A stretch of 64,000 nt of DNA, taken from Bacteroidia bacterium (GTDB taxonomy: Bacteria > Bacteroidota > Bacteroidia > Bacteroidales > Prolixibacteraceae). Both the position numbers and the translations under genes were made by a program. The notes beneath the pieces were generated by a model that was not told the DNA's origin, did no database searches, and saw only the letters and a list, made by a program, of their open reading frames with translations. The DNA lies in assembly GCA_026391655.1 (NCBI GenBank), contig JAPLDR010000124.1, positions 1 to 64,000 on the forward strand. The letters are read 5' to 3'. This document shows, one piece after another, positions 1 to 17,145 of this stretch (the stretch's first letter is position 1; every line of letters begins with the position of its first letter).

Positions 1-1448
1 TTTAGCAACGCGTTCGAACTCTGTCCGGTCGAAATTAACTTTCTTGACGGAGAATTCAGAAATATTAAACGAATACAAGAAGGTCTTATGAAAATCGGCA
101 TCTTCCTGCGGCAATAAAAAAGGTTTACAGGGATTCCCTTTGCCATCGACATACGATATATAGGCATTCATATACAATCCGTCCATCCTGCGGCTGCTGA
201 ATACCACCCATTTCCCGTTTGATGACCACGAGTGATAACTCTCCACATTATTGCTATTAAGGATATCTAATCTTTCGAGTGTCGAATCCGCAAGATGGAA
301 CATATACAAGTCGGCATCTTCGTCATAAGCGGGGAAATTTCCATGATCGGCAATGGTTATCATGATATTCTTTCCATCAGGAGATACGCGCGGAAAAGTA
401 ACACTCTTCCCAAGACGGGAAGCGGAGATTAAGGTATCGACCTTCGTCCCAAGTGTGGCGGTTGTTGCATCAAAAGAGATAGAGCAAAGACTATATCGGA
501 TACTCTTTTCTTCTTTGGGCATGGGGACAGCCTTAGCCGTGACAAAATAAAGTGTTTTACCGTCGGGATGGATAAATGCACTTTCTTCATCAAATTCAGT
601 ATTGATGGTAGGTTCGAAAATAGCAGCGGTGAAGTGAAAAAGAGATTCTTACCCACATCATAAATCACCATATCCGACTCCTGATCAAATCCATGTGCGC
701 GCTCCTGCCCTACCGAAGGAAACAACTGGCGTACCTTATTGATCGAATAGGCAATGTATTTAGCCGAGGGATGCCAGTAAGGGAATGATACACTCGAAAA
801 AGTGAGGGGCGTTTTTGTATTTATCTTTTCAATCTTATCCCCGCGGATCAGGATCGTTCCTGCATTATTTTCGCGCAGGTGGATCATCATATTATCGGGG
901 TTGTTATTGGCCATCGAATGACAATTCATGCAGGTTTGAGGCAATAAACGACTGTCGATAATGGTCTGAACCTTGAAATCGGATAAACAACGCTCATAGA
1001 TTCCCATCGTATTCCACGTTTGATAACCGGGATGGATTAAGCGGTAAACCAAATATTCATCGATGGGATCGGAGGCCACAAAATAGCTGAACGGTTTGTA
1101 TCTGATCCAATTGTTATTCTGACGGGTATAGACAGTCAGATAGATGCTGTCTTCTTTGTTCTCTGACAGAAATTCCGACCAGTCGGAAACGGGAATATCT
1201 GTTTTGTCTCCTTTAAAACTTCTCTCCAATCCACCGTTTTTCCCTTTTATGGAGAGGAATAACCCGTCGCACGTTTCGTTGACTTTAAAATTAAGAGGCG
1301 CAATATTAAAGGGGATTGTCGTTCCATTTTGTGACGGGAAAATGGATGGTAATTTACCCGCGTCAGCAGCATTCTGAGGAGCCGGTTGGGAACATCCCAG
1401 AAATAAAATTGTTATCAGGAATAGAAGAAGAATATTATTTATTTTCAT
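1..1448 (-). CDS. Haem-motif beta-propeller lipoprotein, copy 1 (frameshifted, cut by window edge)
   Basis: TolB/PD40-like secreted protein, third and most distal copy in the triplicated cluster. The N-terminus has a lipoprotein signal (hydrophobic stretch then FLGCS). A single CMNCH c-type haem motif lies near residue 172, followed by propeller blades (YWHPSAKYIAYS). After about residue 268 the frame is lost: the homologous continuation (FEPT, FIHPDGKTLYF, YSLCSISFD, SVTFPRVSPDGK, YHSWSSN) is in the -1 frame, uninterrupted to position 1. The shift lies near 625-645, next to a T5 run (minus strand). Its paralogues at 3841-5364 and 7249-8694 are intact, which shows what the ancestral frame was. 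The gene lies 190 bp downstream of its membrane-protein partner. Either a sequencing indel or a young pseudogene fits. The exact function of the family is not known to me. Confidence 0.75.
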
Positions 1449-1548
1449 GCTTTTGAAAGACTTTTTAAAAATTGATTTGAATAAATTTTAGAGTATTCTC
1501 TTTGATCCATTTTAGTGATATTTTGTGAATTAGTGTCCATTTTTTTTG

Positions 1549-1636
1549 CCACCAATGCACAAAAACACCAAACCCCACCAAATTTATCCAGCAAATCCTT
1601 TGGTGTAATTTGGAGTATTGGTGATTTGGTGGCATT
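1549..1636. repeat. Palindromic intergenic repeat
   Basis: Imperfect inverted repeat between copy 1 of the membrane protein and copy 1 of the propeller gene. The left arm begins GCCACCAATGCACAAAAACA and the right arm ends TTGGTGATTTGGTGGC, so the arms pair with mismatches. It resembles the CACCAA/TTGGTG repeats scattered in Bacteroidota intergenic DNA. A 65-codon frame (1445-1642) reads through it but is composed of the repeat and is not called. Confidence 0.55.
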
Positions 1637-1638
1637 CT

Positions 1639-3450
1639 TCAATTTTTAGATGTGCTTTCATTAAAATGAACGTAATACCAATACGTATTGCCATATAATT
1701 GCTTCATCAATGCGGGGTTTTTATTGCCACCGTTTTTAAAAGCACCGGCATACAATTCAATGCGCCTTCGCACATCGTCGCTTATTTTATATTGCGCCAA
1801 AGCTTCGGGCCATTCGGGCAGCAGCGTCTTCGTATAGACCAAAGCCTCCTGGTATACGAGCGGTGTATCAGCATAATTCATCGAACGGCTTAATGGCAGA
1901 TATTTCAAAAACTGATCGAGGTCTTTTTGCAATAAAAACGACGACATCAGGTATTCGTAAGCCATCCGGTTTTTCGGATTACCCCTGAGTAAAGCGATCA
2001 TGGTCAGATCGACCTGATCGAACTGAAAATAAAAATCATCTTTCACCTGACTGGAACGAAGTTTCCCCCAAAGCGGATGCGCATTTATTTTTTCTTCGTT
2101 GTTCAGATAGGTCGAGGCATCATTTGCCCATTTCCTGTAAAATAAATTCTTTTGCAGATAGCTTAAGAATTTGGCCGCCACATCGTATTGTCCGGTAACA
2201 ATACATGTTTCGGCATATCGTTTAACGGCACGAACCGGCATCACAGCATCGGGCGATGAATCGATTGATTCCATGGCCAGCATCTGCGAGAAATTGATCA
2301 ACCCAAGATAGAAATAAGGTTCATTCGCAATCAATGGTGCCATCCCGTGCAGCTTATAGGGAATAAAAAAATCTGTCAGATGCGGATTAAATGAAAAGAG
2401 TCGCGTACTCAATTGATTCGTCTGCCCCATAGCGAGCATTAAAGCCAGTCGCCCCTGACTTCCTGTCGGCGGATTTTTCTCGGCATTTTTAATAATATCA
2501 AACCATTGTTGCCGGTTTACGAGGTTATCGTACAGCATCTCCTTTTCTTCCTCAACATTTGGATAATGCTGGAATCCATATCCCATATACAACAACAGGA
2601 AGGCTCCAAATACATATTGAAGTATTGTCCTGACTTTAGCCGAAAGCGTATTTTGTACGATAAACTGGTATAGAATCAGGAACGGAACCGATAAAAAAAT
2701 CAGAATTATTGTGGATGGAAAGATCAGGCTGAACTTGTAATAAGCTGACGAATAGTAGCACTGCAACAACGTATCGATTACGAGATAATGACGGACAACC
2801 AATGGAATACTTATACCCATAAGTAAACATCCTGAGATAAACCACCAGATATGCGGCATCTGACTGATTTGGGAATCCTTTTTAAAACGAATAACCAACT
2901 CAATTGAAATCACAGACAATACAAACAGGATATAGGTCCCGCCAAACAACCAATATATCAAAGGAATTAGAATCAAACCAAAAACCATTCGCAGATTAGG
3001 TGCTGCTATTCTCAAATAAATCACAATAGTCCAGATTGACACCCCAACGGCCAATGCACCCGAAATGTAGAAGAAGTCGTTGCACAACAAAAAACAGTAA
3101 CCCACGGCAGGTAAAAAAGCAAGCACATTTAGCCTGTTACCGAAAAGCTGTTTCAAAACACATTGGGCAGGATAATAAATCGAGAAGATGATTCCACTCA
3201 CCACGAACGCTCCAACCCAGGGGTATAAAAAAAACTGAGTGAGGAATTCGCCACAATAAATGGCAAATCCATCCTGAATGGCCAAATGACAGGTCAGGTA
3301 ATCAAAACCGGTCAAAAACAGCTGCATTTGCTCTTTTTGTACGAGGTGACTGGGATAATACGTACCCCAGAAAACAAGCAATGCTGTGAAGAATATGACG
3401 GATGAGAAAATGGTTAATGCCGTTATTTTGCTTTCCTTCATAACATTCAA
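1639..3450 (-). CDS. Polytopic membrane protein with helical-repeat tail (probable DUF6057), copy 1
   Basis: Integral inner-membrane protein of 603 aa. About ten hydrophobic segments fill residues ~10-290. A soluble C-terminal half of paired helices follows (AVKRYAETCIVTGQYDVAAK is TPR-like). It shares with the copies at 5383 and 8691 the motifs KEQ.QLFL, FLTQFF, YWL.GG, a YEYLM motif in the tail and a terminal YWYY..F. It is the upstream partner of a haem-motif propeller lipoprotein, an arrangement repeated three times. I recognise this as probable DUF6057, which has no established function; a role in assembling, or passing electrons or signals to, the paired propeller is inference only. The start at 3450 is followed by a second Met three codons on. 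Confidence 0.7.
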   Translation of the reverse strand: MNVMKESKITALTIFSSVIFFTALLVFWGTYYPSHLVQKEQMQLFLTGFDYLTCHLAIQDGFAIYCGEFLTQFFLYPWVGAFVVSGIIFSIYYPAQCVLKQLFGNRLNVLAFLPAVGYCFLLCNDFFYISGALAVGVSIWTIVIYLRIAAPNLRMVFGLILIPLIYWLFGGTYILFVLSVISIELVIRFKKDSQISQMPHIWWFISGCLLMGISIPLVVRHYLVIDTLLQCYYSSAYYKFSLIFPSTIILIFLSVPFLILYQFIVQNTLSAKVRTILQYVFGAFLLLYMGYGFQHYPNVEEEKEMLYDNLVNRQQWFDIIKNAEKNPPTGSQGRLALMLAMGQTNQLSTRLFSFNPHLTDFFIPYKLHGMAPLIANEPYFYLGLINFSQMLAMESIDSSPDAVMPVRAVKRYAETCIVTGQYDVAAKFLSYLQKNLFYRKWANDASTYLNNEEKINAHPLWGKLRSSQVKDDFYFQFDQVDLTMIALLRGNPKNRMAYEYLMSSFLLQKDLDQFLKYLPLSRSMNYADTPLVYQEALVYTKTLLPEWPEALAQYKISDDVRRRIELYAGAFKNGGNKNPALMKQLYGNTYWYYVHFNESTSKN

Positions 3451-3635
3451 TTAAATCTTTTGCCTGTAAAAAACCTTTGGAATAATAAACTTTCTATTTA
3501 AATTCCACCTTTGTTTGGTCATAATCGTGTTAATATGCCCGGATTGTGCCATAGGCACAAAATATTGGTAGAATTCGGATATCCTGTAAAACATACCGTC
3601 CCGTACGGGCAATGCTGTTAAGTTAAGGGTTTTTG

Positions 3636-3728
3636 ATTGTTTTTTCTTTGTGGAACTTTGTGTTTCTGTGTCTTGGTGGCTATTTTTTCTTGCCACAAAG
3701 TCACTAAGCCACAAAGGAACACCAAGAA
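3636..3728. repeat. Palindromic intergenic repeat
   Basis: Imperfect hairpin in the 390-bp gap between pairs 1 and 2. The left arm runs CTTTGTGG...TCTTGGTGGC and the right arm GCCACAAAGTCACTAAGCCA and onward to ACCAAG. The arms are complementary over about 30 positions with mismatches. An 87-codon minus frame (3451-3714) covers it but lacks family similarity and is not called. Nothing else is visible in the gap. Confidence 0.6.
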
Positions 3729-3840
3729 ATCTGCTAACTTAACGACATTGCCCTAAGGGGAATCTACATCGAAATTAATCAGTTTCAAAATACATAACGA
3801 TCTTTTAAAATTCGGAAACTGTTTCTTCATATCCCGATGT

Positions 3841-5364
3841 TCATTGTTTAAACGTCACTTTCTTTAAGGGCGATTCCAGCAGTTTCTCCAATTCGGGAAT
3901 ATTTACGTCTACTTTTTCGTTTACAAATTCAGGAATATTAAAAGAAAACAGAAGCCGGTCGTAATATTCAGTGTCTTTTTGCGGCAATAAAAACGGTTTT
4001 CCGGCCTTCCCGTTTTCATCCAGATAAGCGATAAATGGCCGTGTATATAAACCATCCATGCGCCGGCTGCTAAATACAAACCACCGCGAGTTCGACGACC
4101 ATGAATGATAACTTTCCGTATCATCGCTGTTCACTTCGTCAATACGCCGAGTACTTTTCGTTTTCAAATCAAGCAAATAAAGATCAGCTTCTTTGTGCCA
4201 GATGGAGAAGTTCCCGTAATCGATCAGCGTAAACATGATGTATTTTCCATCGGGTGAAGGACGCGGGAAAGTGACACTTTTTTGCAGCGCAACTGCATTG
4301 AATAACGTATCGATCCGGTCGCCAAAAGTTCCGTTATCGGGATTAAAAGAGATGCTGCAAAGGTTATACCGGACTTCGTTAAACTCGGCGGGCATCTTTT
4401 TATGAGCAGCCCTGCAGAAATAAAGGGTTCGTCCGTCAGCTGAAAACGAGGGAAATGTTTCAAAAATACTGTCCTGCATCAACAAATTACAACTGATCGC
4501 CTGATTATTTTTAATATCATACACAACGACATCCGAAGCGGCATCGCCCACTTCAACTCTTTTCCCTGCAGCTTCATGAAAAACCTGGTGCGTATTATTC
4601 ACAGAATAGGCGATATAATTGCCCGAAGGATGCCAGAAAGGATAGACAAAATTCGACATTGTTTTGTCGGTTTTGGTGTTTAACAGGTTCATCTTGCCAT
4701 TGGATATTAAAGCAGTACCCCCTTTTTTACCCCTGATGTGAAAACTCATATCCTTCGTATTTGACTGCCGGAAAGAGTGACAGTTCACACAACTTCCGGG
4801 AATCAGTGTATTTTCTACAATTGGGGATTGATCAAAATTTGAAAGATTACGCTGGTAAATACCCATCTTACTGTAAACCTCGTAACCGGGAGCAATCAAA
4901 CGATAGACCAGTCCGTAATCAATTGGCGTTGTGCTCACATACATTGCAAAAGGGGCATACTGTTTCCATTTGTCATGCTGCTTTATAGAAACCGTTATCT
5001 GAAGACTATCACCTTTGGAACCGGAGAGCATTTTAGTCCATTTACTGACGGGGATACAAATCTCTTTCGCATCCTGAAGGTGGATCACTTGATTGTTTCG
5101 TCCTTTAATGACAGCATCGATGGCTGTATATTCAGCCTTCACCTTAAAATTCAGGGGCGCAATAGTCGCAGGAATGGTTACTCCCACATAGTCGGGAAAC
5201 AGCGACGGTTTTTCTTTCAATACATCTGTGGGCGACACCTTTTCGCTGCAGGATGAAAGGACCAGAAGGAAGAAGCCAGTTGCCAGTAGCCAATTGCCTG
5301 CCGCCAGCCGCCAGCCGCCAATTGCCTGAAGTATGTTTTTTATATTGAATTCATTTAATGTCAT
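3841..5364 (-). CDS. Haem-motif beta-propeller lipoprotein, copy 2
   Basis: Secreted protein of 507 aa, predicted lipoprotein (LVLSSCS). Order: N-terminal beta domain, CVNCHSF single haem-c motif near residue 196, then a PD40-type propeller (FWHPSGNYIAYS, FPSFSADGRTLYFC, FPRPSPDGKYIMFT, YHSWSSNSRWFVFSSRR). The gene starts 18 bp after the copy 2 membrane protein, so the two are probably co-transcribed. Oddity: the signal-peptide core (GGWRLAAGNWLLATGF) is encoded by a GCCAGC/TTGCC-rich repeat that elsewhere in this window is intergenic. One CxxCH suggests one covalently bound haem and so an electron-transfer or sensory role; this is inferred, since only the motif is seen. Confidence 0.78.
   Translation of the reverse strand: MTLNEFNIKNILQAIGGWRLAAGNWLLATGFFLLVLSSCSEKVSPTDVLKEKPSLFPDYVGVTIPATIAPLNFKVKAEYTAIDAVIKGRNNQVIHLQDAKEICIPVSKWTKMLSGSKGDSLQITVSIKQHDKWKQYAPFAMYVSTTPIDYGLVYRLIAPGYEVYSKMGIYQRNLSNFDQSPIVENTLIPGSCVNCHSFRQSNTKDMSFHIRGKKGGTALISNGKMNLLNTKTDKTMSNFVYPFWHPSGNYIAYSVNNTHQVFHEAAGKRVEVGDAASDVVVYDIKNNQAISCNLLMQDSIFETFPSFSADGRTLYFCRAAHKKMPAEFNEVRYNLCSISFNPDNGTFGDRIDTLFNAVALQKSVTFPRPSPDGKYIMFTLIDYGNFSIWHKEADLYLLDLKTKSTRRIDEVNSDDTESYHSWSSNSRWFVFSSRRMDGLYTRPFIAYLDENGKAGKPFLLPQKDTEYYDRLLFSFNIPEFVNEKVDVNIPELEKLLESPLKKVTFKQ
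5270..5332. repeat. GCCAGT/TTGCC-rich repeat inside signal-peptide coding DNA
   Basis: The plus strand reads in units of GCCAGTTGCC, GCCAATTGCC and GCCGCCAGCC. It encodes the hydrophobic core of the copy 2 propeller signal peptide. Similar GCCAG/TTGC-rich sequence occurs in noncoding DNA at ~11166-11207 and ~25381-25440. Confidence 0.6.
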
Positions 5365-5382
5365 ATAACCACTTTTTAAGGT

Positions 5383-7146
5383 TTATTTTCTAAATTGAAG
5401 ATAGTACCAATAGGTATTTGTGAAGGCATCAAACAGCTTAGGGTCAGGATCAATTTGATGCGGGCTGATCCTTTCGAAAGCTTTAATGCGTTGCTTCGTT
5501 AACGGATTTATCGGATAAAGAATTTCCTTTGAGGGGTCGGTATTTGTCTTTTCCCAAATGTACATTAATGCTTCCTGATAACTATTGGGAATTGCCTTAT
5601 AGTGTAGTGTCCGGCCCAAAGGAAAGTATTGTACAAAATGCTTTAAGTCTTTAATAAGTAGCGTATAAGCCATTAAATATTCATAAGCCATCCGGTTCTC
5701 GCTGTTTTGCCGGAATAAAACGCCAAGCATCATATCTTTTTCCCCTTCGCTGAAAAGAAAGTCGTCCTTTGTACGACATTGACGCAACCACCCCCATTCG
5801 GGATGTTGAGCAATTAAATTTTCGTCCTTCATGGTGATGAGTGCTTTTGTTGCCCAGACCCGGTAATAAAATGTCTTTTGCAACAGGTGCAAATACTTCG
5901 CGGCAACGGTATAATTCCCGTTGATCAGATTGGTTTCAGCCAAACGCTTCACCGCACGGACACTCTTCTGGTAGTCGGGCAAAGCCTCCATTGCCTCAAA
6001 GGCATAGCGTTGCGCCGTATTTATAAACCCTAAATGATAATAGACCTCTCCGACCATCATTGGAATCGTAAAATCACGCGTAAAATCGGGAATTAAGCCA
6101 CCGATACCATTCTGGTAATAGTAAAACATACGATCGGCAAGCAATCCCTCTTTTGCAAGAGCAAGATTGAGACAGGTCACAGAAAGGGGGCTCGTGGGTG
6201 TCTTCCTGTCGGCAAGCGCAATTACATGGTCCCATTTTCGCATCCTTACATTAAAATCGTAGGCCATCACCTCTTCCTTTTCCATATCGGCAACCTGACG
6301 GATAAACAGGTAACCACCAGATAACAATACGACTAATTGAACAACGAATATCAATATCTTTCTGTTTTTCTTTATATGAACAGTAAGGAAATGAAGGATA
6401 ATGGGAATGAATACGATGAGCAGGCCAATTAATCCAATTGATACAGGAATAATTACAGGGAACCGGAAGAAATTGACACCAATCCATGCCTGCCTCATGG
6501 GATACTGAAGGAGATAGGTTTTACTTAGTACCGGCAGGGCAAAAGAAAGCGCAACACATCCTAACGTAAATAAGATCAGATGAATAATTTTAATTTCCCG
6601 CTTCATTATCTCTCTTATAATTACGAACAGTGGCAGCAGCAAAAATGCACCTCCGACAAGCCAGTAAAGCAAAGGGATTAATAACAAAACAAAAAAAATA
6701 CGGACCCGATTACCTTTAAGCAGCGTATAGGCGCCAATAGAAGCCGCCGTGAGCAACATGACCACAACGCCTCCCAACAAATAATTTTCATCGCATAACA
6801 ACCCCCAATAGAGCAACGAAGGAATAAACGTGATTGGCATAAACAACGGCTTTGCTCCCAGTTGTTGGGAAATAAACCATATGGTTCTTTGCAGGAGTGT
6901 GAATAATATGGCAATAATAATCGCACCGACCCACGAGTAAAAGAAAAACTGCGTGAAGAAATTACCTGTAAAGTCGCTAAACCCACCCGGTTTTGCCACG
7001 AACTGAAAGAAGTAGTCAGGAGAGAATAAAAACAGTTGGTACTGCTCCTGATAATTCAGATGAAATGGGTATAAAAAGGCAAAAAACGCAAAAACCATTA
7101 ATCCAAATACCAGCGAAAGTAGCTTATCGATCGAAAATATCTTCAT
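5383..7146 (-). CDS. Polytopic membrane protein with helical-repeat tail (probable DUF6057), copy 2
   Basis: Inner-membrane protein of 587 aa, second paralogue of the triplicated pair. About ten membrane segments occupy the first ~290 residues. Diagnostic stretches are QEQYQLFLFSPDYF near residue 33, FFTQFFFYSWVGA near 62 and YWLVGGAFLLLPL near 162. The C-terminal half is helical (AVKRLAETNLINGNYTVAAK; NRMAYEYLMAYTLL) and ends NTYWYYLQFRK. It is followed after 18 bp by its propeller partner. The 102-bp gap upstream, to the copy 3 propeller, could hold a promoter or simply be an operon spacer. Function unknown. Confidence 0.7.
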   Translation of the reverse strand: MKIFSIDKLLSLVFGLMVFAFFAFLYPFHLNYQEQYQLFLFSPDYFFQFVAKPGGFSDFTGNFFTQFFFYSWVGAIIIAILFTLLQRTIWFISQQLGAKPLFMPITFIPSLLYWGLLCDENYLLGGVVVMLLTAASIGAYTLLKGNRVRIFFVLLLIPLLYWLVGGAFLLLPLFVIIREIMKREIKIIHLILFTLGCVALSFALPVLSKTYLLQYPMRQAWIGVNFFRFPVIIPVSIGLIGLLIVFIPIILHFLTVHIKKNRKILIFVVQLVVLLSGGYLFIRQVADMEKEEVMAYDFNVRMRKWDHVIALADRKTPTSPLSVTCLNLALAKEGLLADRMFYYYQNGIGGLIPDFTRDFTIPMMVGEVYYHLGFINTAQRYAFEAMEALPDYQKSVRAVKRLAETNLINGNYTVAAKYLHLLQKTFYYRVWATKALITMKDENLIAQHPEWGWLRQCRTKDDFLFSEGEKDMMLGVLFRQNSENRMAYEYLMAYTLLIKDLKHFVQYFPLGRTLHYKAIPNSYQEALMYIWEKTNTDPSKEILYPINPLTKQRIKAFERISPHQIDPDPKLFDAFTNTYWYYLQFRK

Positions 7147-7248
7147 TTGGAATATGTTATAACTTCATTTACAATATTCATAAAATTCAAATCTGCTTAT
7201 TCAATCAATTTCAGGCGAAAAATATTAAAAATTGAATGAATAACCGCA

Positions 7249-8694
7249 TCACTTCACCTGCTCAACCTCCTGATCCCAATAAACGCGCTCAATATCCTTT
7301 GCATCAAATGGCGTCGGGCCTTTAGCGAGTTCAGGAATATTAAACGATTTAAGGGTATTATCGTACACTGATGGATCGCGTTGTGGCAAAACAAACGGTT
7401 TGAAAGCCTTACCCGTTGAATCGATGTAACAAATATAAGGTTTGCCATAGATTCCGTCATCGCGTTTGCTCGCAAAAACAAACCACCGGCTATTTGACGA
7501 CCAGCTGTGATATGAATCTGAATTGGGTCCATTCACAACCTTCAAACGATCGATTTCTCCCGTTTTCAGGTTCATCAGCTGCAAATCTGCTTCGCGATGC
7601 CAGATTGGGAAAGTGCCATAATCGGCAACGGTATACAGGAGGTACTTGCCATCAGGCGATGTTTTCAGATGACAGACAGAACCGCCCATCTTTCGGGCAT
7701 TCCAAAGTGTATCTGCTTTTAAGCCTATCGTCCCATTTTCTGCATCGAAACTTACACGACAAATATTGTATTTCAACAATTTGATGCTATCGGGCAAAGG
7801 GATGGCGGGTGCCACACAATAGTAAATCCACTTTCCATCGGCCGAAAAGACAGGGAAGGTTTCCAAAGCAGTGGAATCTGAGAGAAAAGGCTGGGTAATG
7901 ACCTCATCCTTATCAAAATCGATCACGATTAAGTCGGATGCAGTATCGTACACTTCAAGTCGCTCGCTTCGATAAGCATGTAATTCAGGGATGATAATAT
8001 TTGTCGAGAAAACAGCATATCGTCCTCCCGGATGAAAGTTGCCATAAACAGCATTCGAAAGCATTTCCTTGCCCCGGGTGTTGATTTTCCGCAGTTTGCC
8101 ATATCGGTTCAGAATGGTACCACCATTCTTACCTCTTAGATGAAACATCGAGAGTGAAGCGTTTTGGTTACCATAGATGTGGCAGTTCATGCAAGTACCG
8201 TCGGTTAAGTTATTGTCGGCAATTACGCGCTCATCAAAAGATTCAATATGGCGTTCAACCAGCTGCACCTTGTTCCACACTTCATAACCGGGTTCAATCA
8301 GCCGATAACTCAGAAACGGATCAATCCTGTCGCTCTTCACATGCCAATAGAATGGTTCATACTGAATCCACTCCCCATTTAGGTATGCCTTCACACAAAC
8401 AGACAGGTTTCGCCCCTGCTCTGCTGTAAGAAGTGCCTTCCATTTTTTCAACGGGATCTCAATTCTCTGAGTTCCTTTAATGGTAATTGAATCTTTGCTA
8501 CCTTTAATGGTCACCACCATATTATCCGGTCCATTTCGCATCAGGAAATTAAGTGGCGCCACATTAACCGGAATGGTCACATCAATATAGTCGGGATAGA
8601 TGGGTGGAAGAGTATGACTCATCTTTATGTCCGCAGGCCCGCTGCACGATGCCAGAATCAGGCTTATAATGGCAGAAAATATAAAACTCCTCAT
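7249..8694 (-). CDS. Haem-motif beta-propeller lipoprotein, copy 3
   Basis: Secreted protein of 481 aa with a lipoprotein signal (LILASCSG). The single haem-c motif CMNCHIY is near residue 177. Propeller blades follow with NFHPGGRYAVFS, FPVFSADGKWIYYC and LKTSPDGKYLLYT, then YHSWSSNSRWFVFASKR. Its ATG overlaps the stop codon of the copy 3 membrane-protein gene (ATGA at 8691-8694), so translation of the two is probably coupled, the strongest evidence that the pair functions together. Like copies 1 and 2 it ends with a conserved SFNIPEL-type tail. Confidence 0.78.
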   Translation of the reverse strand: MRSFIFSAIISLILASCSGPADIKMSHTLPPIYPDYIDVTIPVNVAPLNFLMRNGPDNMVVTIKGSKDSITIKGTQRIEIPLKKWKALLTAEQGRNLSVCVKAYLNGEWIQYEPFYWHVKSDRIDPFLSYRLIEPGYEVWNKVQLVERHIESFDERVIADNNLTDGTCMNCHIYGNQNASLSMFHLRGKNGGTILNRYGKLRKINTRGKEMLSNAVYGNFHPGGRYAVFSTNIIIPELHAYRSERLEVYDTASDLIVIDFDKDEVITQPFLSDSTALETFPVFSADGKWIYYCVAPAIPLPDSIKLLKYNICRVSFDAENGTIGLKADTLWNARKMGGSVCHLKTSPDGKYLLYTVADYGTFPIWHREADLQLMNLKTGEIDRLKVVNGPNSDSYHSWSSNSRWFVFASKRDDGIYGKPYICYIDSTGKAFKPFVLPQRDPSVYDNTLKSFNIPELAKGPTPFDAKDIERVYWDQEVEQVK

Positions 8695-10427
8695 CTCTTT
8701 TGAATTGTAGCAAAGTGATAATAAAACCAGTATGATTTACCAAACCGTCCGCTCAAGGCATTTATTTCGCCTTTTGTTTTTTCAAATAGTTGCGTGTAAT
8801 CTGCAAAGTCCTTTATTTTTTTCGGAGAAATGGCATAACTTGCGACCTCATCCTGAGATGCCTGCGAAGATAGTAATTGAATTAACAAAGCCTCACCGTA
8901 GAGTGATGGTACGGGCCGGTTAATCAATCTGCCATATTGATCATACACTTTTCTGAAAGATTTCAAATCCTTGTTAAGCAAATGGTAACAAAGCAGGTAA
9001 TCGAGTGCGATCAGATTATTCGGGTTCTGTTCGACAAGGAAACTGAGAGAAGTCAGATAGTAATTCGATTTACGGAGTGTGTCGACCTGAGGAATCTGAG
9101 CGCGCTTTCCGATCAGCCATTTGTCTGAAGCGGACACATGATTCATTGCCTGCCTGCTTTCTGCCCATTTTTTATGAAACAGCGTCTTACTCAGTATTCG
9201 CAAATATTTATTGGCACCGGCTGAGTCCTCATTCACCATATTGATTTCAGCCAGACGTTTGATCATGCGAGAGCTCCTTTGATAAGGCGAAAAAGTATTT
9301 CCGAGCATTGCCGAATGCTGCGCAAGGTTCATATCTCCGAGCAGAAAAAATACTTCATTGCTTACGAAGATCGACTGCCAGTTTTCGTCAGGCATCACAG
9401 GCAATATCAATCCGGATGCTGCCGGCTGGTAAAAGTCTAAAAGATATTCAGGCAGTTCTCCTTTTTTAGCGAGGGCCATATTGGTAAAATAGGTAGCACT
9501 CCGGGACTTCAGATTATACTTTTGCGAAAGTTCAATGACCCGGTCGGTATTCCCAAAATAGAATTCATTGTCAAGGGACAGGATTTTTTCGCGGTCGAAA
9601 CTGGCATTTGCCCTAATTCCAAAAAGCAAAAGGAAGATGAAGGCAAAAGGAATAGTAATATTGAAAATTCGTGAATATTTGACTTCGAACCGTTTTAAGA
9701 AGAAAGCAGCCATAAGCACGAGAATCAAAGAAGCTCGTAAGAGGATGCTTTGCAAATTCATTGCAGGGTAAATGTAGGACTGGGTGATCGTAAGTAAGTA
9801 ATAATGCCTCAATGCTATTGGAATCAAAAATATTACTGCACCAATCAATAACCATTTAAGCAAATAGGATCGTCCCTTTTCCCAGTCATAAACCATAATC
9901 AGTAATGGAAAAACAAGAAACGAACTACCAGCCAGCCAATAACCAATAAAAGCCATTATCAGACCGAATGCGGTAGAGAGCCATCGTTTCGAAATCGAAC
10001 TATAAATCAAAAAAAGGATTAAAACCAGAATAAAGCCAACAGAAGCGGAAACGCGATACAATAGATCACAATGAAGCATCCAATCAATTGCAACCGGGAA
10101 TAAACCCCAAAGAGGTGCATTTTTTGTGGCAGAAATTCGTTTGATTACAAAAGAGCAGAGGAGCCATTCGAGGCAAAACAGGAGCGAGAGAACTGTTGCT
10201 CCACCTCCTCGCAGGTAGAAAAATTGTGTAAGATAATCGCCCGCATAACAAGCAAGCCAGGCAGGTTTATTGAAATAAGAGAGGAAGTAATCTGAATTAA
10301 AAAGGAACAACTGAATCTGCTCTTTGAAAAACAGATGGTAAGCATAAAAGAGCTGAAAAAAAAGAAAGCTCAAAAAAGTAAGCCCTAAAGCTACAATTCC
10401 AAAGCGTTTTTTTTCGGATGCCGACAT
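8691..10427 (-). CDS. Polytopic membrane protein with helical-repeat tail (probable DUF6057), copy 3
   Basis: Inner-membrane protein of 578 aa and first gene of the three-pair series. It retains the family stretches KEQIQLFLFNSDYFLSYF, YLTQFFYLRGGGA and YWLAGSSFLVFPL, then a soluble helical half ending SYWFYYHF. It is more diverged than copies 1 and 2. It overlaps the following propeller gene by four bases. A broken DUF4369 lipoprotein gene lies upstream on the same strand. Assignment to DUF6057 rests on recall of the family pattern, and no function is established. Confidence 0.7.
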   Translation of the reverse strand: MSASEKKRFGIVALGLTFLSFLFFQLFYAYHLFFKEQIQLFLFNSDYFLSYFNKPAWLACYAGDYLTQFFYLRGGGATVLSLLFCLEWLLCSFVIKRISATKNAPLWGLFPVAIDWMLHCDLLYRVSASVGFILVLILFLIYSSISKRWLSTAFGLIMAFIGYWLAGSSFLVFPLLIMVYDWEKGRSYLLKWLLIGAVIFLIPIALRHYYLLTITQSYIYPAMNLQSILLRASLILVLMAAFFLKRFEVKYSRIFNITIPFAFIFLLLFGIRANASFDREKILSLDNEFYFGNTDRVIELSQKYNLKSRSATYFTNMALAKKGELPEYLLDFYQPAASGLILPVMPDENWQSIFVSNEVFFLLGDMNLAQHSAMLGNTFSPYQRSSRMIKRLAEINMVNEDSAGANKYLRILSKTLFHKKWAESRQAMNHVSASDKWLIGKRAQIPQVDTLRKSNYYLTSLSFLVEQNPNNLIALDYLLCYHLLNKDLKSFRKVYDQYGRLINRPVPSLYGEALLIQLLSSQASQDEVASYAISPKKIKDFADYTQLFEKTKGEINALSGRFGKSYWFYYHFATIQKR

Positions 10428-10450: not shown

Positions 10451-10988
10451 TTAAAAACTTAATTCCTTTTTTTGCTCAGCAGAGAACGAGCCCCAAATCA
10501 TTTTTTTAATAAATTTACCTACTACGTTATTCCGGTTGTTACGAACAAAGTTAAAATGAAAATCAACAATCCGGGCATTTAGAGAGTCAGCCTTCTGTTT
10601 TAAAGAGAAAATCAGCCACGGCTTTTTTTTCCTTCCACTGCTGAAGCGAGTCATTTAAGGCAGTACCCCCCGCGGAACTTTTATTTCCTATTTTCACGGT
10701 TATAATACCAGTTTCTTTTACAACAAGCAATTCCTGAAGATTGTACCGCAATACGGGTTTTGCTCTGATCATGTAAATCTCGGAGGTCTTAATTGCTCCT
10801 TCAAACTTAAACGTTCCATCCGCAATAATAGTCGAATCTACTCTTTCTTTTACTGCATTTTCTAATGGTACCAAATAGATTTTCTCTCCGTCATATGTTT
10901 TATCAGGCAGTTGTCCATTTATTACAAATTGAGGATCAGTCCGGCAACCAATCAGAATAAAAAGTAAAATATAAAAAGCATTTCGCAT
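10451..10988 (-). pseudogene. DUF4369 lipoprotein gene, frameshifted and truncated
   Basis: The first frame (10587-10988) encodes a lipoprotein signal (ILIGCRTD) and the DUF4369 pattern (VINGQLPDKTYDGEKIYL, DSTIIADGTFKFEGAI). It stops just after an A8 run and an AAAA run (minus strand). The continuation in the +1 frame (KQKADSLNARIVDFHFNF, NNVVGKF, SFSAEQKKE) matches the usual family pattern and stops at 10451. Family members often go on into a thioredoxin domain, which is missing here. Both a frameshift near 10595-10620 and an early end are seen; whether the indel is real or a sequencing error cannot be told. Confidence 0.6.
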
Positions 10989-11369: not shown

Positions 11370-12215
11370 TTAAAATTTTCTGAACATCCAAAACCATGCT
11401 GTACCCCAGGCTCCTGATCCGGGTTCCGGCCATGCAAGAACAAGCTTGGTATCTGTTAATTTTAGAATATCATAAACGTAGACCGGTGCATTTCCACCGT
11501 TAGGTGCTACCCCTTTAAGAACTGTAACATTGGCCGTAGTAAGCTTTGCCATTGCCCAGACTGCTCCATTACCATCCAGTTTTTTAGCAGCTATATCAAG
11601 AGCTGCTGTACCAGTTTCGGTTTTGGTTCCGGCTAAATTTGATTTTTTCAAAGTCATACCAGCCAGCGTAAATACCATATAGCCATCAGAACCATAATCA
11701 GGATCGTTTCCGGCCATTGAAGCTTTGTCATTTGTCCACCATCCAGGAGAAGAATTTCCCAGATAGCCACCATTGCCCCAAACGGCACCGGCAGTTTCAT
11801 CCCATACATATTTCTTGGAGGTTTCGCCTGCAGTAATATTTCCAAAAAGATTTTTGAACTCGATGGGCAACGTCGTAAGGGCATCGATTTGAATGGAGAA
11901 AGTTTTAGTAATCTTGCTTCCATCAGGATTTAATCCTGTAAAAGTAACATCGACTGCTCCGGTTTTAACAACCATTACCGTATCATAGGCTTTTGTTGAA
12001 GTAGCCCCGCCGCAATTCCAGGAAGATATAACAGGGCTGTGATTTTCAAGAACAACCATATTACCATTCTTCCCATTCACTACGATAGGAGTGGCTTTTA
12101 CATTCAGTTCTGCAGATGTAATTGCGCCTCCCATGGCATCTCTGTTTACAATAGGCTCACATGCGAAGAACGCAGTGGCAAGGATAAATAAAGAAAATAA
12201 AATCGTTTTTTTCAT
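11370..12215 (-). CDS. Surface lipoprotein of the susCD operon
   Basis: Lipoprotein of 281 aa (signal then FFACEP). The N-terminal part (~40-115) resembles an Ig/PKD-like domain (TFTGLNPDGSKITKTF). The C-terminal part is beta-rich and aromatic, with many Trp and Gly (GGYLGNSSPGWWTNDK; WPEPGSGAWGTAWFW), as in surface glycan-binding proteins. It lies 33 bp downstream of susD, at the SusE/F position. I infer a substrate-binding surface lipoprotein; the ligand is unknown. It differs from the classical SusE/F three-domain layout in being much shorter. Confidence 0.65.
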   Translation of the reverse strand: MKKTILFSLFILATAFFACEPIVNRDAMGGAITSAELNVKATPIVVNGKNGNMVVLENHSPVISSWNCGGATSTKAYDTVMVVKTGAVDVTFTGLNPDGSKITKTFSIQIDALTTLPIEFKNLFGNITAGETSKKYVWDETAGAVWGNGGYLGNSSPGWWTNDKASMAGNDPDYGSDGYMVFTLAGMTLKKSNLAGTKTETGTAALDIAAKKLDGNGAVWAMAKLTTANVTVLKGVAPNGGNAPVYVYDILKLTDTKLVLAWPEPGSGAWGTAWFWMFRKF

Positions 12216-12248: not shown

Positions 12249-13958
12249 TTATTTCCAGCCAGTATATTCGGCAGCAGATGTTCCCCATCCATCATTCTGG
12301 ACCAGAATACCCTGAGAAAGAGCAATCTGATTTTCAGGAATCGGGAAGAAACCCTTTGTCGCAGTATAGCGAGCCTTATAACCACCGCCAAATGCTTTGG
12401 TAACTTCAGCTACACCTTTAAAGTAACACTTAACACCAACCTGTTTGTCAAGCAAGTCACCAGCAATACCCCAACGACGGATGTCGTTCCAGCGGGTACC
12501 TTCGAATGCAAGCTCCCAATGGCGTTCGTTTTGAAGGGCAGCCAAAGAATAAGCTTTATCAGGCAAACCGGCACGTTTGCGAACCAGGTTCATTGAAGTA
12601 GCTGTACCAGTCAACTCAGAGTGCATCAGCAAAACATCAGCAAAACGGATCAACACCAAATCCTGGGTATTGTCGAGCTGAAAATTATCAGCCGTAGCAT
12701 ACATCGGCACACTGTATGACGATGCATAAGTGCCATCCGCATTTTTAGCAGATACCGGGGTATATTTCTTTTGCCAGTAATCGGTTTCCTGAACAAAATC
12801 AGACCATCCACCTTTGGCATAAGTTGGAAGTTCAGTAGGAATTTCAATAATAGAAGCCACACGACGCATATCGGTTGGTTCAGCTGTTTTCCAATCATTC
12901 CAAAGCGTTGGATTCACAGGTCCGGCACCCCAACCCTGACCATAAGGGAAGGTTTTATCATAAGCCTGACCACCGCGTAACCCAAAATGAAGAACATACT
13001 GGTTAGAGTAACCAATAGAAGTACTCCAGCTTGGGAAGTTTGAAAATTTAATCGCAAACATAGTTTCAGGATTAACAGCATTGTCGTCCTCAACCCATTT
13101 CAAACCTTTACCTTTAGTATACGCATAATCGTTAACGGTATATTTGTTGGTATAGGCCCAAAGATTACGGAAATCAGGAACCAAAGACTGACCACTGTGT
13201 GCAATACAATCTTCCACATAAGTTACCACTTGTGCTTTCGTCATTGTGGTGCCACCAACAAGAGGAAGGTCGGCTTTTGCATAAAACCCTGTATAGAACA
13301 AGTAAACACGAGCCAACAGCGCCTGGGCTGCCCATTTAGTGGCATGACCCGCCTCAACGGAGGTATACGGAGTGGATGGCATCAGTTCAATAGCCATCTT
13401 CAGGTCGGATGCAATCTGAGCATAGAGTTGTTCGGGTGTAGCTTTGGGAAGATTTACCGGATCGGTTGTAACTACCAAAGGTACCTGGCCATAATAAGAA
13501 GCCAATTCATAATAGAAAAATGCACGCAGAAAATAAGCTTCACCCTTCATCTGATTCTTTTGGGCATCGTTATCGTAACCTGTGCAATTGTCAAGTGTAG
13601 CAATGGCCATATTGGCACGGAAAATACCTCTGTAACGGACATTCCAGAAATCCTGAAGCATACTTGATCCGTTGTTCATCAAAAGATCCAGTGCCTGCAT
13701 CAGCTTATCGTTTTCTCCACCACCACCAAATCGGTCGTCTGAGGCGAGTTCAGCTGCATAAAAGAATGAAGTATGAGGGCTGGCTGTACCATAACTCAGG
13801 TCGGCATAAATACCGGTAATCATCTGTCTTGCATCAGTTACCGTCTGCGGATAATTTGAAGTATCCTTCTTTGTGAGGTTTTTCGTATCGAGAAAATCTT
13901 CACAACTAATCAACAACAGCGAGGCTGCCGTTATACATATATATAATAAATTCTTCAT
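12249..13958 (-). CDS. SusD/RagB-family nutrient-binding lipoprotein
   Basis: Lipoprotein of 569 aa (LLLISCEDFLDTKN, typical of SusD). Alpha-helical TPR-like regions (GEAYFLRAFFYYELASYYGQ near residue 140; AQALLARVYLFY near 211) and the C-terminal SusD signature (ERHWELAFEGTRWNDIRRWG near residue 480) are visible. SusD lids the SusC transporter and captures an oligomeric substrate at the outer membrane. It lies 13 bp after susC in the same operon. No glycoside hydrolase, sulfatase or protease is adjacent, so the substrate cannot be read from context. Confidence 0.92.
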   Translation of the reverse strand: MKNLLYICITAASLLLISCEDFLDTKNLTKKDTSNYPQTVTDARQMITGIYADLSYGTASPHTSFFYAAELASDDRFGGGGENDKLMQALDLLMNNGSSMLQDFWNVRYRGIFRANMAIATLDNCTGYDNDAQKNQMKGEAYFLRAFFYYELASYYGQVPLVVTTDPVNLPKATPEQLYAQIASDLKMAIELMPSTPYTSVEAGHATKWAAQALLARVYLFYTGFYAKADLPLVGGTTMTKAQVVTYVEDCIAHSGQSLVPDFRNLWAYTNKYTVNDYAYTKGKGLKWVEDDNAVNPETMFAIKFSNFPSWSTSIGYSNQYVLHFGLRGGQAYDKTFPYGQGWGAGPVNPTLWNDWKTAEPTDMRRVASIIEIPTELPTYAKGGWSDFVQETDYWQKKYTPVSAKNADGTYASSYSVPMYATADNFQLDNTQDLVLIRFADVLLMHSELTGTATSMNLVRKRAGLPDKAYSLAALQNERHWELAFEGTRWNDIRRWGIAGDLLDKQVGVKCYFKGVAEVTKAFGGGYKARYTATKGFFPIPENQIALSQGILVQNDGWGTSAAEYTGWK

Positions 13959-13971
13959 ACTGATAAATCAA

Positions 13972-16900
13972 TTAAAATTTGATATTAACACCTACCAGAT
14001 AAGTTCTTGGACTCGGATAGAATCCTAAGTCAACTCCGGAAACCCAGCTTTGACCACCGCCGTATCCAATTTCAGGATCTTGTCCCGAATACTTGGTGAA
14101 TGTGTACAGATTCTGAGCAGTTACGTATAAACGGGCTTGTCCAAAAGGCATTTTGGTAAACAATTTTTTGAAATCGTACCCAAGTGTAACGTTCTGTATC
14201 TTTACATAATCGCCATTTTCAATATAGATATCGGAAACTTCCTGCCAGTTTGAATTGCTGCCACTCGTGAGGCGAGGTAATTTATTAGAAGTTCCTTCAC
14301 CATACCAACGACCAAAAACATCGGTCGTATAGTTCTGAATTTTCGTGTCGGCAAATGAGCGGTACGATTTCGCAATTTGTTGGCCAAATGCGCCTGTACC
14401 GGCAACATTCAAATCGAAACCCTTGTATCCAAGATTAAAGCTAAATCCAATCGTGATGTCGGGATGAGGATCACCAATCTCAACTTTATCCTTTGTATCA
14501 ATTTTCCCATCTCCGTTGGTATCCACAAAAATTAAATCACCCGGCTGAGGTTTCGATTGTAAAAAAGCCTTAGTAGCGGCAATCTGTGATTGATTTTGGA
14601 ATACTCCGGCTGTTTTATATCCCCAGAAATAACCAATAGGAAATCCAACCTGGGCACGGTACATTTCAGTAGTACCCTGGCTCAATACATTGGCATCTCC
14701 ATGAATGATTCCTTCTCCATTGGCAATACGGGTTACTTCGTTTTTATTGTGGGCAAGGTTAAAGTTTGCACCATAAGTAACTTTGCCGATGTTGTCTTTC
14801 CAGTTTGCAGAAATCTCAAAACCCTTATTATCAACATCCCCACCATTAATATATGGAGCATTCGTACCATAAGAGCCTAAGACAGGAGCTTGAACAAGCC
14901 AGTCGATCGTTTTCTTGTCGTACCAGCTGAAAGCCATTCCTAAACGGGATTTCAGGAAGCGTGCGTCAAAACCGAGGTCAAGTGTTTGTGATGTTTCCCA
15001 TTTGATATCCTTATTAGGCAGAATTTCGGCATATCCACCAGTTGCCTGTGACGTTTTAGTGTTGCCAAAAGAATATGCAGCCGTTAAATCGAAAGCCACA
15101 GTTGCCAGGTATTGGAAATTAGAGATAGATGCATTTCCGTTTTGTCCCCAGCTGCCACGCAGTTTCAGAAAGTCCAGCCAGCTCTTTGCGTTTGCCATAA
15201 ATGATTCATTAGTAATTACCCAGCCAGCTGATACAGAAGGGAAATAACCCCAACGGTTGCCACGGGCAAAGTTTGAGGAACCATCGGCACGAGCCACAAC
15301 AGTTGCCATATAAGTTTCCCTGTAGTTATAACTCAGACGGCCAAAGAACGATTCCAATCCTCCTGAACCCCAGGGACTGCCACCAATAGTTGTAGTACCC
15401 GCAGTAAGTCCTTTTGTGTTGTCAAGCCAGGCATGTTCGAAGTCACTAAAGAGGGAGTATCCATTTGTAGCACCCATACTTTCACCCATTCCCCATTTTT
15501 CCAATGACTGACCTACAAGGGCATTAAATGCATGCTCTTTAATACGAAATGCATAGGCCAGTGTATTTTCAAATGTCCAGCTATAGCCTGAACTCATTGA
15601 CTGATTAACCCTGTCGATCGTATTTATACTTGATGTAGAAAGTTCATACATTGGCGTATATTGGCGATAACTACTGGCACTCATCCTATACCCGAAAGTA
15701 CTTTTAAGTATTAAATCTTTTATAGGTTGAATCTCAAGATAAGCGCTTGTATTCAGATTATAGTTTTTCGACAAATTCATTCCCCTGTTATAAATCATAT
15801 TTGCAATAGGGTTGGCAACGTCCGGACTAAGTTGATCAAGTCCTGTAGAAGCTTTATCTGCTCTGTCAAAATAGGTTCCATCAGCACCATAAACCGGCAT
15901 TAACGGAGTCCCCACCATCATATTGTGAATATCATTCCAATAAATATTGCCAATACCAATACCTTGATTCTCACTGTAACCATAAGTCAGGTTTTCACCA
16001 AATTTAACTACATCAAGACCTGAATTACCCTTTAAAAGAATATGCTCAGAATTTAATCTTGCAGTATAACGTTTGCTATCGGGCTCAACCGGAGTGCCAT
16101 AAATACCTTGCTGATCGCTATAAGAGAAACCCAACGCGAATTTAGAGACCTCATTACCACCCATTATATTTAGTGCGTGATTCTGAGTAGTTGCATTTTT
16201 ATTGCGGATCTCATCAAGCCAGTTTGTACCATTCCATCCACTTATAACTTTAGTATTTAATGAAGGAATCATTGTCGCCCAGTTGTAAGGAGCTAAACCC
16301 TCATTAAAATTAATTTCATTCAGAATATTCATGTATTCTTTTGCATTTAGTAGTGGAGGCTCCTTATATGGATTCTGAATACCATAATATCCATCATAAG
16401 TAATCTGCATCTTTCCGGCCTTTCCACGTTTTGTTGTAACAAGGATTACACCATTAGCAGCACGCGCACCGTAGATAGCAGCTGATGCAGCATCTTTTAA
16501 AACGTCAACAGACTCAATATCTGATGGGTTCAAAGAATTGATGTCACCGCCTGCAATACCGTCAATTACATACAGTGGATTAGAATTACCAATTGTTCCT
16601 AATCCACGTATGGTCACTTTATAACCCTGACCTGGCATACCTGAATTCTGAACAATACTAACACCCGGTGACTGGCTTTGCAAAGAACTCAGTACACTGA
16701 TGGTACTAAGTTTTTGAATATCTTCACCACTCACCTGAATAGTTGCACCTGTGTTCAACTTCTTCTTTTGGACACCATAACCAATTGCCACAACCTCTTC
16801 AAGACCGACGGCTTCAGCAACCAGTTTCACAGAGATTTTGGTCTGGTTACCAAGCACAATCTCCTGAGTTTTCATTCCAATAAAAGAAAAAACCAGGGCC

Positions 16901-17145
16901 TTAGCAGTAACCGGAACAACAAGAGAATAATTACCATCAAAGTCAGTGACAGCACCTGTTGTTGTTCCTTTAACAATAACTGTCGCACCCGGAACAGGAG
17001 CGCCAGTCTCATCAGTTACATTCCCGGAAATGGTCTTCTGCTGGGCAAAAGCCATACCTGTAAGCATTACCATGAAAAGAACCATGGAGAGGAATTTTCC
17101 TGCCCATTTCCCTTCTGGCGAAAAACTTAGTCTAATTGGTTTCAT
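13972..17145 (-). CDS. SusC/RagA-family TonB-dependent outer-membrane transporter
   Basis: Protein of 1057 aa, normal for SusC. Order: signal peptide (~1-35), carboxypeptidase-regulatory-like Ig domain (QKTISGNVTDETGAPVPGAT, 36-115), TonB-box region (LEEVVAIGYG), plug (VTIRGLGTIGNSNPLYVIDG; SVDVLKDAASAAIYGARAA), then a long beta-barrel ending in IKF with a terminal Phe. It imports bulky substrates with SusD under TonB-ExbBD energy. It is first in the operon. A 687-bp AT-rich region separates it from the next gene upstream and no sigma/anti-sigma pair is present. Confidence 0.95.
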   Translation of the reverse strand: MKPIRLSFSPEGKWAGKFLSMVLFMVMLTGMAFAQQKTISGNVTDETGAPVPGATVIVKGTTTGAVTDFDGNYSLVVPVTAKALVFSFIGMKTQEIVLGNQTKISVKLVAEAVGLEEVVAIGYGVQKKKLNTGATIQVSGEDIQKLSTISVLSSLQSQSPGVSIVQNSGMPGQGYKVTIRGLGTIGNSNPLYVIDGIAGGDINSLNPSDIESVDVLKDAASAAIYGARAANGVILVTTKRGKAGKMQITYDGYYGIQNPYKEPPLLNAKEYMNILNEINFNEGLAPYNWATMIPSLNTKVISGWNGTNWLDEIRNKNATTQNHALNIMGGNEVSKFALGFSYSDQQGIYGTPVEPDSKRYTARLNSEHILLKGNSGLDVVKFGENLTYGYSENQGIGIGNIYWNDIHNMMVGTPLMPVYGADGTYFDRADKASTGLDQLSPDVANPIANMIYNRGMNLSKNYNLNTSAYLEIQPIKDLILKSTFGYRMSASSYRQYTPMYELSTSSINTIDRVNQSMSSGYSWTFENTLAYAFRIKEHAFNALVGQSLEKWGMGESMGATNGYSLFSDFEHAWLDNTKGLTAGTTTIGGSPWGSGGLESFFGRLSYNYRETYMATVVARADGSSNFARGNRWGYFPSVSAGWVITNESFMANAKSWLDFLKLRGSWGQNGNASISNFQYLATVAFDLTAAYSFGNTKTSQATGGYAEILPNKDIKWETSQTLDLGFDARFLKSRLGMAFSWYDKKTIDWLVQAPVLGSYGTNAPYINGGDVDNKGFEISANWKDNIGKVTYGANFNLAHNKNEVTRIANGEGIIHGDANVLSQGTTEMYRAQVGFPIGYFWGYKTAGVFQNQSQIAATKAFLQSKPQPGDLIFVDTNGDGKIDTKDKVEIGDPHPDITIGFSFNLGYKGFDLNVAGTGAFGQQIAKSYRSFADTKIQNYTTDVFGRWYGEGTSNKLPRLTSGSNSNWQEVSDIYIENGDYVKIQNVTLGYDFKKLFTKMPFGQARLYVTAQNLYTFTKYSGQDPEIGYGGGQSWVSGVDLGFYPSPRTYLVGVNIKF

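Follow-up and report, generated by a model that had tools for sequence, protein, structure and literature searches.

Why should one genome encode, three times in succession, a membrane protein of the family DUF6057 (PF19529) together with a secreted propeller lipoprotein carrying a single CxNCH motif? The question is raised by the window analysed here, the whole stretch of 64,000 nucleotides given by bases 1-64000 of contig C60 (97,991 bp; JAPLDR010000124.1) in the 5.0 Mb assembly, of 149 contigs, of a Bacteroidia bacterium (GCA_026391655.1). The answer tentatively preferred is that the pair forms an obligate two-protein unit of the cell envelope, composed of a putative mono-haem (haem c) propeller and a dedicated inner-membrane DUF6057 partner which would dock it through a periplasmic tetratricopeptide repeat (TPR) domain; this is regarded as possible, with somewhat less than an even chance of being correct. 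Linkage of the two genes, their co-occurrence in genomes, the mirrored divergence of the partners and the near-invariance of the CxNCH motif were all observed.

The first-pass annotation of the window described three tandem modules of a membrane protein and a propeller. The open reading frames (ORFs) were identified as described, and all three membrane proteins belong to PF19529, with full-length model matches of 506, 597 and 439 bits for modules A, B and C against a gathering score of 29.8. Exactly one CxNCH motif had been claimed for each propeller, and it is present as CMNCH in A, CVNCH in B and CMNCH in C. The spacing was likewise reproduced, with a 4-bp overlap (ATGA) in pair A and 18 bp between the genes of pair B, and 190 bp separate the genes of pair C. 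The paralogues were said to be diverged while keeping their motifs, which agrees with pairwise identities of 25-35% among the three membrane proteins and of 41% between propellers A and B, with CxNCH retained in each; that the paralogous modules have distinct specificities can only be inferred. Of the three pairs, A and B are intact, but propeller-C is split over two frames, with the break located between about positions 570 and 618, and is ended by the contig edge. Because the first base of the window is also that of contig C60, the gene runs off the end of the contig and is incomplete. In the same genome, the chorismatase-like gene described below is likewise split into two adjacent ORFs (L284, G000:C36:18000-31500), and assembly indels may be the cause of both breaks. 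A fourth module was identified on contig C105 (L004), with the reversed order of propeller and then DUF6057 and a PF19529 score of 436.7 bits.

In a survey of 295 genomes of the order, DUF6057 was identified in 37 genomes and the propeller in 36, and all 36 contained both. At most four or five candidates per genome were scored with either profile, and a propeller was called on a profile match with E below 1e-50; G455, G535 and G588 and weaker places, with E 1e-19 to 1e-27 and frames of 564-953 aa that are longer than most, were left out of the propeller count. G340 is the sole genome with DUF6057 and without a propeller, and its DUF6057 matches are only partial. A separate collection was searched by the propeller alone, from which the best 80 loci of at least 585 confirmed relatives were used, containing 118 propeller ORFs. 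For 110 of these, DUF6057 lies within 1 kb on the same strand, upstream in 101 cases (including L215, an over-long ORF call with its DUF6057 upstream) and downstream in 9. The first-pass annotation had allowed for propellers occurring mostly without the membrane protein; in both surveys they occur mostly with it. The eight propellers without an adjacent DUF6057 were searched again over the whole loci with a larger profile. Three of them (L159, L197, L219) begin at a contig end, in L161 the DUF6057 gene is found 1283 bp from the propeller with a chorismatase-like gene in between, and in L201 two DUF6057 genes are present on the strand opposite to the propeller; the last three are considered below. 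Among loci centred on DUF6057, a propeller was present in 53 of 59. The loci of the order survey and those found by the propeller alone overlap in part, so that the sets of 182 ORFs, 142 loci and 174 proteins used in the following hold some duplicates.

The two-gene unit is present in some gut and sediment bacteria, and modules are carried by Parabacteroides distasonis, a gut species (L183, L189, L211). In the distant genomes G078 and G039, from outside the class, DUF6057, the propeller and the chorismatase-like gene are all adjacent. Weak PF19529 matches from a search of the phylum (E about 1e-3 to 1e-5) were not counted; of those checked, L010 proved to be FtsW/RodA and L022 PMT_2.

The partners have also diverged in parallel. 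FastTree trees were built for 139 pairs with DUF6057 upstream, after identical propellers had been removed (143 to 139), and the distance matrices of DUF6057 and the propeller correlate with r 0.88. When all partners were shuffled, the mean r was near 0 and the maximum 0.12 in 300 shuffles. When partners were exchanged only within the 23 loci containing two or three modules, a mean of 0.64 and a maximum of 0.76 were obtained, and the observed r was reached in 0 of 500 shuffles. The same nearest neighbour was found in both trees for 61% of the pairs. Since the trees mirror each other within loci, the pairs have therefore been inherited as units with little swapping, and mirrored divergence of this kind would be expected of physical partners.

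The possibility, considered in the first-pass annotation, that the motif is not conserved in homologues does not hold. Of 182 propeller ORFs, 176 contain CxNCH, two contain CxGCH and four contain neither, the latter being three fragments and the full-length L094; one CxxCH is present in 178 of the 182. Among 174 near-full-length propellers, a cysteine occupies the lipobox position in all, C192 and C195 are each present in 173 and H196 in 174. Further conserved histidines are H209 (164), H245 (168), H263 (147), H390 (162) and H420 (169). In L094 (G546:C7:62000-75500, 4156-5667), C192, N194, C195, H209, H390 and H420 are all changed, and R155, R172, H196, R211, H245, N256, H263 and D274 are retained; this one natural variant suggests that the residues lost together may serve one site. 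The DUF6057 partner of L094 is also without an acid at positions 31-37. A separate observation concerns seven loci (L196, L199, L201, L205, L209, L210, L215), in which propellers opposite in orientation to the neighbouring modules have H209 replaced by Tyr.

The AlphaFold2 (AF2) model of propeller-B aligns with TolB over residues 57-484 (Z 26.3, 278 aligned, root mean square deviation (rmsd) 3.3), and also with the propeller of hydrazine synthase alpha (5c2v; Z 22.5, 284 aligned, rmsd 3.8). In this model, the predicted hairpin partner of the strand containing CxNCH carries H209. A search of PDB sequences gave no match for propeller-B and two weak matches for the propeller profile. Five positions following the lipobox cysteine contain on average 0.75 acidic residues in the propellers (174 proteins), compared to 1.89 in SusD (36), 1.95 in the lipoprotein LP3 (19) and 0.45 in DUF4369 (11), the comparison sets being those neighbours in which a lipobox pattern was found. 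So low a number of acidic residues makes exposure to the periplasm more likely for the propeller than exposure at the cell surface, and the latter, beside SusCD, was set aside on the comparison with SusD, which is a weak argument. The protein is accordingly predicted to be a periplasm-facing lipoprotein with a TolB-type propeller. At residues 352-354, the motif D(S/T)(A/I/L/V/M/T) of Bacteroidota O-glycosylation is kept in 146 of the 174 propellers.

For DUF6057, the AF2 model of the B protein contains about nine transmembrane (TM) helices by manual count, a long first extracytoplasmic loop and a C-terminal half made up of helices only. In the four loops placed in the cytoplasm, K/R residues average 1.8-2.4 per 7-9 residues; among the loops placed outside, the two short ones average 0.0-0.3, and the two long loops 1.7 over 45 and 1.9 over 25 residues. 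On these loop charges, the C-terminal TPR half is most likely periplasmic. TPR proteins match the model over about residues 290-450; Foldseek gave no match at E 0.001 or better, and the rows listed were mostly TPR or other helical-repeat chains. Matches of the N-terminal half to GT-C-type glycosyltransferases arose only in a second look by VIA alignment, not in Foldseek, and their Z values of 9-11 lie within the background of the tool for helical proteins: Pmt4 (9i5l; Z 11.4, 264 aligned, rmsd 5.4), Pmt1-Pmt2 (6p25_B; Z 10.3, 271, 5.6), the oligosaccharyltransferase OST (6s7t_A; Z 9.4, 262, 5.2) and ArnT (5ezm; Z 9.2, 280, 5.9). Model residues 1-298 are spanned in three of the four, and 1-395 for 6s7t; the second look does not speak against families that it did not list. 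When the TM part was compared to 23 PMT_2 relatives by hhalign with -glob 0, a probability of 54.5 was obtained (E 1.8e-5, 288 columns), with 0.1 each for the MFS and SusC controls; default settings gave a probability of 36 (E 3.8e-4, 61 columns), with 2.0 for the reversed control, 0.0 for five column shuffles and 0.1 for the TPR half. No match at E 0.1 was found when PDB sequences were searched with the DUF6057 profile.

The membrane domain is thus predicted to have about nine TM helices, arranged as in GT-C proteins, and to be followed by a periplasmic TPR domain; a GT-C-like fold is probable for it, and enzymatic activity is putative. Conservation is higher in the first extracytoplasmic loop than over the whole TM domain (mean entropy 2.27 versus 2.94). 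As a catalytic acid, E34 is the strongest candidate; 140 of 161 proteins have it, and 151 of 161 have an acid anywhere at positions 31-37, one of the remainder being truncated. The most conserved positions of the membrane domain include F39, Q66, G74, P109 and G165. A role as transmembrane electron conduit was rejected, the domain being without invariant His, Cys or acid, so that quinol oxidation or haem b binding is unlikely.

The genes surrounding the modules provide a link to c-type cytochromes. At 142 loci, the families that recurred most often within four genes of modules were SusD (46 loci), SusC (43), the Rid protein, which is chorismatase-like (33), LP3 (27) and DUF4369 (22). The 59 DUF6057 loci were compared with 40 control stretches chosen by hand, not randomly, on the same contigs. 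SusC was identified in 20 of 59 loci versus 5 of 40 controls (p 0.019), SusD in 19 of 59 versus 3 of 40 and the Rid protein in 10 of 59 versus 0 of 40 (p 0.005); LP3 (6 of 59 versus 0 of 40, p 0.08) and DUF4369 (5 of 59 versus 1 of 40) are less clear. Genes of the glycoside hydrolase families 2, 10, 26, 43, 97 and 130 recur near modules. DUF4369 proteins as a thioredoxin-type partner were rejected, no thioredoxin domain being found in the two neighbours scanned.

The profile of the Rid protein matches the FkbO/Hyg5 chorismatases (5ag3, E 9.2e-48; FkbO 4bps, E 3.5e-36). The gene was identified in 56 of the 295 genomes, namely in 33 of the 36 with a propeller and in 23 of the 259 without (odds ratio 113, p 3e-25, which is too small a value, the genomes of one order being related; the 36 propeller genomes span 22 families). 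The gene was located at 61 places. DUF6057 is found within 10 kb of 12 of them and ResB/CcsA within 10 kb of at least 15, with no place near both and 34 near neither; nearness to ResB/CcsA was measured against 42 places, so that this count is a lower bound. Around the chorismatase-like gene, operons were found (L274, L275, L278, L279) containing an imelysin, a DHOR di-haem protein, Porin_O_P, a small cytochrome-like lipoprotein, CcsBA and Rid. DHOR relatives were present in 9 and CcsBA in 10 of 20 such loci, which were chosen partly for their nearness to ResB, so that the counts are not a survey. The chorismatase-like gene accordingly accompanies both known c-type cytochromes and the DUF6057-propeller module, and because it associates with both, the link of the pair to haem c biology gains independent support. 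ResB itself is present in 35 of the 36 propeller genomes versus 178 of the 259 others (Fisher p 9e-5), in agreement with PF01578, also present in 35 of 36 with G663 as the exception.

A variant group from Bacteroidales was encountered in the same search (L283, G337:C2:84000-102000; L293, G568:C1:129000-147000), in which hydrazine-synthase-like haem proteins occur with the chorismatase-like gene and CcsBA. In L283, a 1331-aa protein combines the middle domain of hydrazine synthase alpha (PF18582, 2.4e-37) with FGE-sulfatase and NPCBM domains, and a protein similar to hydrazine synthase beta/gamma matches NF052342 with 1.6e-29, below the cut-off.

In the window itself, the three modules are apparently the 3' portion of one operon, SusC-SusD-lipoprotein-DUF4369-(DUF6057-propeller)x3. 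Its genes follow one another on the minus strand from 17145 to 1, in the order SusC-like, SusD-like, LP3, DUF4369 lipoprotein and then the modules (Table 1).

Table 1. Coordinates of the modules and of the neighbouring genes in the window.
Feature	Position	Strand	Basis
DUF6057-A, inner-membrane protein with TPR-like tail, 578 aa	8691..10427	-	PF19529 E 1.8e-151
Propeller-A lipoprotein, 481 aa	7249..8694	-	PD40 7.3e-14; propeller profile (built with propeller-A included)
CMNCH of propeller-A, residues 168-172	8179..8193	-	Sequence, alignment
DUF6057-B, 587 aa, AF2 mean pLDDT 94.8	5383..7146	-	PF19529 E 5.4e-179; model
Propeller-B lipoprotein, 507 aa as called, AF2 mean pLDDT 92.9	3841..5364	-	PD40 1.3e-14; model
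CVNCH of propeller-B, residues 192-196	4777..4791	-	Sequence, alignment
DUF6057-C	1639..3450	-	PF19529 E 4.1e-131; ORF from TTG 3450, likely start ATG 3441
Propeller-C, N-terminal part with CMNCH (918-932)	429..1448	-	Sequence; profile match 618-1430
Propeller-C, C-terminal part, other frame, ends at contig edge	1..522	-	PD40 2.2e-08; profile match 4-570
DUF4369 lipoprotein, 133 aa, upstream operon neighbour	10587..10988	-	PF14289 1.7e-13
LP3 lipoprotein, 281 aa, recurrent neighbour (27/142 loci)	11370..12215	-	Neighbour-family survey
SusD-like lipoprotein	12249..13958	-	PF14322 4.2e-32
SusC-like TonB-dependent transporter	13972..17145	-	CarbopepD_reg_2 + Plug; PDB 8aa4 E 4.3e-150

As a two-protein unit, the module may be pictured as follows. 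The propeller would receive one haem c from CcsBA, and its own DUF6057 partner would dock it with the conserved surface of the periplasmic TPR domain, whether to anchor, mature or modify it. The outcome would be a haem-propeller complex, specific to each paralogue, at the inner membrane. It would share its cytochrome-related context with the chorismatase-like gene, and its genes would often stand beside those for SusCD uptake or glycan degradation. Redox, sensing or maturation, the functions suggested in the first-pass annotation, are putative for the module.

Several results weigh against this picture. The pairing is not without gaps, since no DUF6057 was found with the larger profile in the whole loci of L162, L176 and L188, where the propeller adjoins the chorismatase-like gene, and no propeller is present in 6 of the 59 loci centred on DUF6057; in the genus, DUF6057 was identified in 5 of 18 genomes, the one analysed here included. 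Co-duplication of linked genes would likewise produce mirrored trees, without any contact of their products. As to the haem, six conserved histidines are more than one haem needs, and in the AF2 apo model CxNCH lies inside a predicted beta strand (192-199) of an early blade; haem c motifs normally sit in helices, and placement in a strand is unusual. None of 78 DUF6057 places lies within 10 kb of any of the 42 ResB/CcsA places. A PF01578 match was obtained in 9 of 20 ResB-negative genomes checked, so that the enrichment of ResB is weaker than its p value suggests, and G663 keeps CLNCH while profile searches of this genome with ResB and PF01578 gave no match.

Some of these points bear on an alternative to haem c, in which a non-haem metal, either copper, zinc or iron, would be bound by CxNCH together with the conserved histidines, inside the propeller channel or close to it. 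This alternative is regarded as doubtful, although it would account for six histidines conserved together with two cysteines, for the joint loss of C192, C195, H209, H390 and H420 in L094 and for the missing maturation genes of G663; from the strand limits, C192 would also lie opposite H209 across the predicted hairpin. Propellers such as thiocyanate dehydrogenase and selenium-binding protein bind copper, and both are structural neighbours of the propeller (8yu5, Z 16.3; 2ece, Z 16.8), but this similarity is not specific, since many propellers align with the propeller-B model at Z 16-19. Haem c is favoured by a motif which is exactly CxxCH with a near-invariant Cys pair and His, by the presence of haem c maturation genes in all but one of the 36 propeller genomes and by the occurrence of the linked chorismatase-like gene in c-type cytochrome operons. 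That the modules merely accompany glycan or peptide uptake loci as co-inherited accessory genes, without physical partnership, is very improbable. The excess of SusC and SusD over the controls and the glycoside hydrolase genes nearby would be explained in this way, but 39 of the 59 DUF6057 loci are without SusC in the stretch, and the pair persists through duplication and in varied contexts while its other neighbours change.

A further alternative concerns the membrane partner. Like the eukaryotic TMTC proteins, it might be a glycosyltransferase of the GT-C type that has a TPR domain in the periplasm and moves a polyprenyl-linked sugar onto its cognate propeller. This is considered unlikely. 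The VIA matches (Z 9.2-11.4) that speak for it are at background level for helical proteins, and the hhalign match to PMT_2 relatives, at a probability of 54.5 or 36 depending on the setting with controls of at most 2.0, stands beside a DUF6057 profile without a PDB sequence match. The above-average conservation of the first extracytoplasmic loop also speaks for it, but none of its acids is strictly conserved. The O-glycosylation motif kept in most propellers is a further point in favour, but this motif is read by a general Bacteroidota system and is present on about half of the non-cytoplasmic proteins, as described in PMC12871550. In this 2025 review, the core-glycan flippase, transferase and ligase of the general O-glycosylation system are listed as still undiscovered. 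With its patchy distribution (37 of 295 genomes of the order), DUF6057 is excluded as the general Bacteroidota transferase or oligosaccharyltransferase. Quite unlikely is a more far-reaching version, in which DUF6057 would be the bacterial counterpart of TMTC, a GT-C/TPR transferase modifying one dedicated cytochrome-like propeller client and co-diversifying with it after tandem duplication, with a chorismatase-derived aromatic compound in the same haem-protein pathway.

With the two-protein unit as the preferred reading, a DUF family gains a partner of its own and a predicted architecture and is placed in a cytochrome-related context, from which testable hypotheses follow for genes that are also present in gut species. 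Protein modification in Bacteroidota would be concerned as well if DUF6057 were indeed an active GT-C/TPR enzyme. Why a chorismatase-like enzyme should be associated with operons of c-type cytochromes is a puzzle in its own right. The term DUF6057 was not found in the literature searched, nor was a paper on the DUF6057-propeller pair among the matches listed; the sources consulted included accounts of TMTC proteins (PMC7801869) and of iron piracy in Bacteroides (PMC13142918).

As regards known systems, the four membrane proteins of this genome all belong to Pfam DUF6057 (PF19529) over their full length. Pfam assigns this family no function; its propeller partner and predicted TPR/GT-C-like architecture were worked out here. 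The linked Rid gene has clear profile homology to the FkbO/Hyg5 chorismatases, but the one protein tested, from L150, scores 151.6 with TIGR04444 and is below the cut-off of 325, and its genomic setting is that of cytochromes. With TolB and TolB-like PD40 propellers, the module propeller shares the predicted fold and a weak TIGR02800 match, whereas its score is at most 34.5, below the equivalog cut-off of 343.15, and its partner is DUF6057 and not Pal. TolB is not known to carry CxNCH. Hydrazine synthase alpha is similar in its propeller and in the context of haem proteins; however, the CxNCH of the module lies inside the propeller, and the haems of hydrazine synthase alpha sit in the middle and C-terminal domains, according to PMC12758564. 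TMTC1-4 and other GT-C/PMT mannosyltransferases would share with DUF6057 a membrane domain of GT-C-like fold and, behind it, extracytoplasmic TPR repeats, both of which are predicted for DUF6057; they differ from it in that the DUF6057 profile has no PDB sequence match at E 0.1 and its candidate acid is not strictly conserved.

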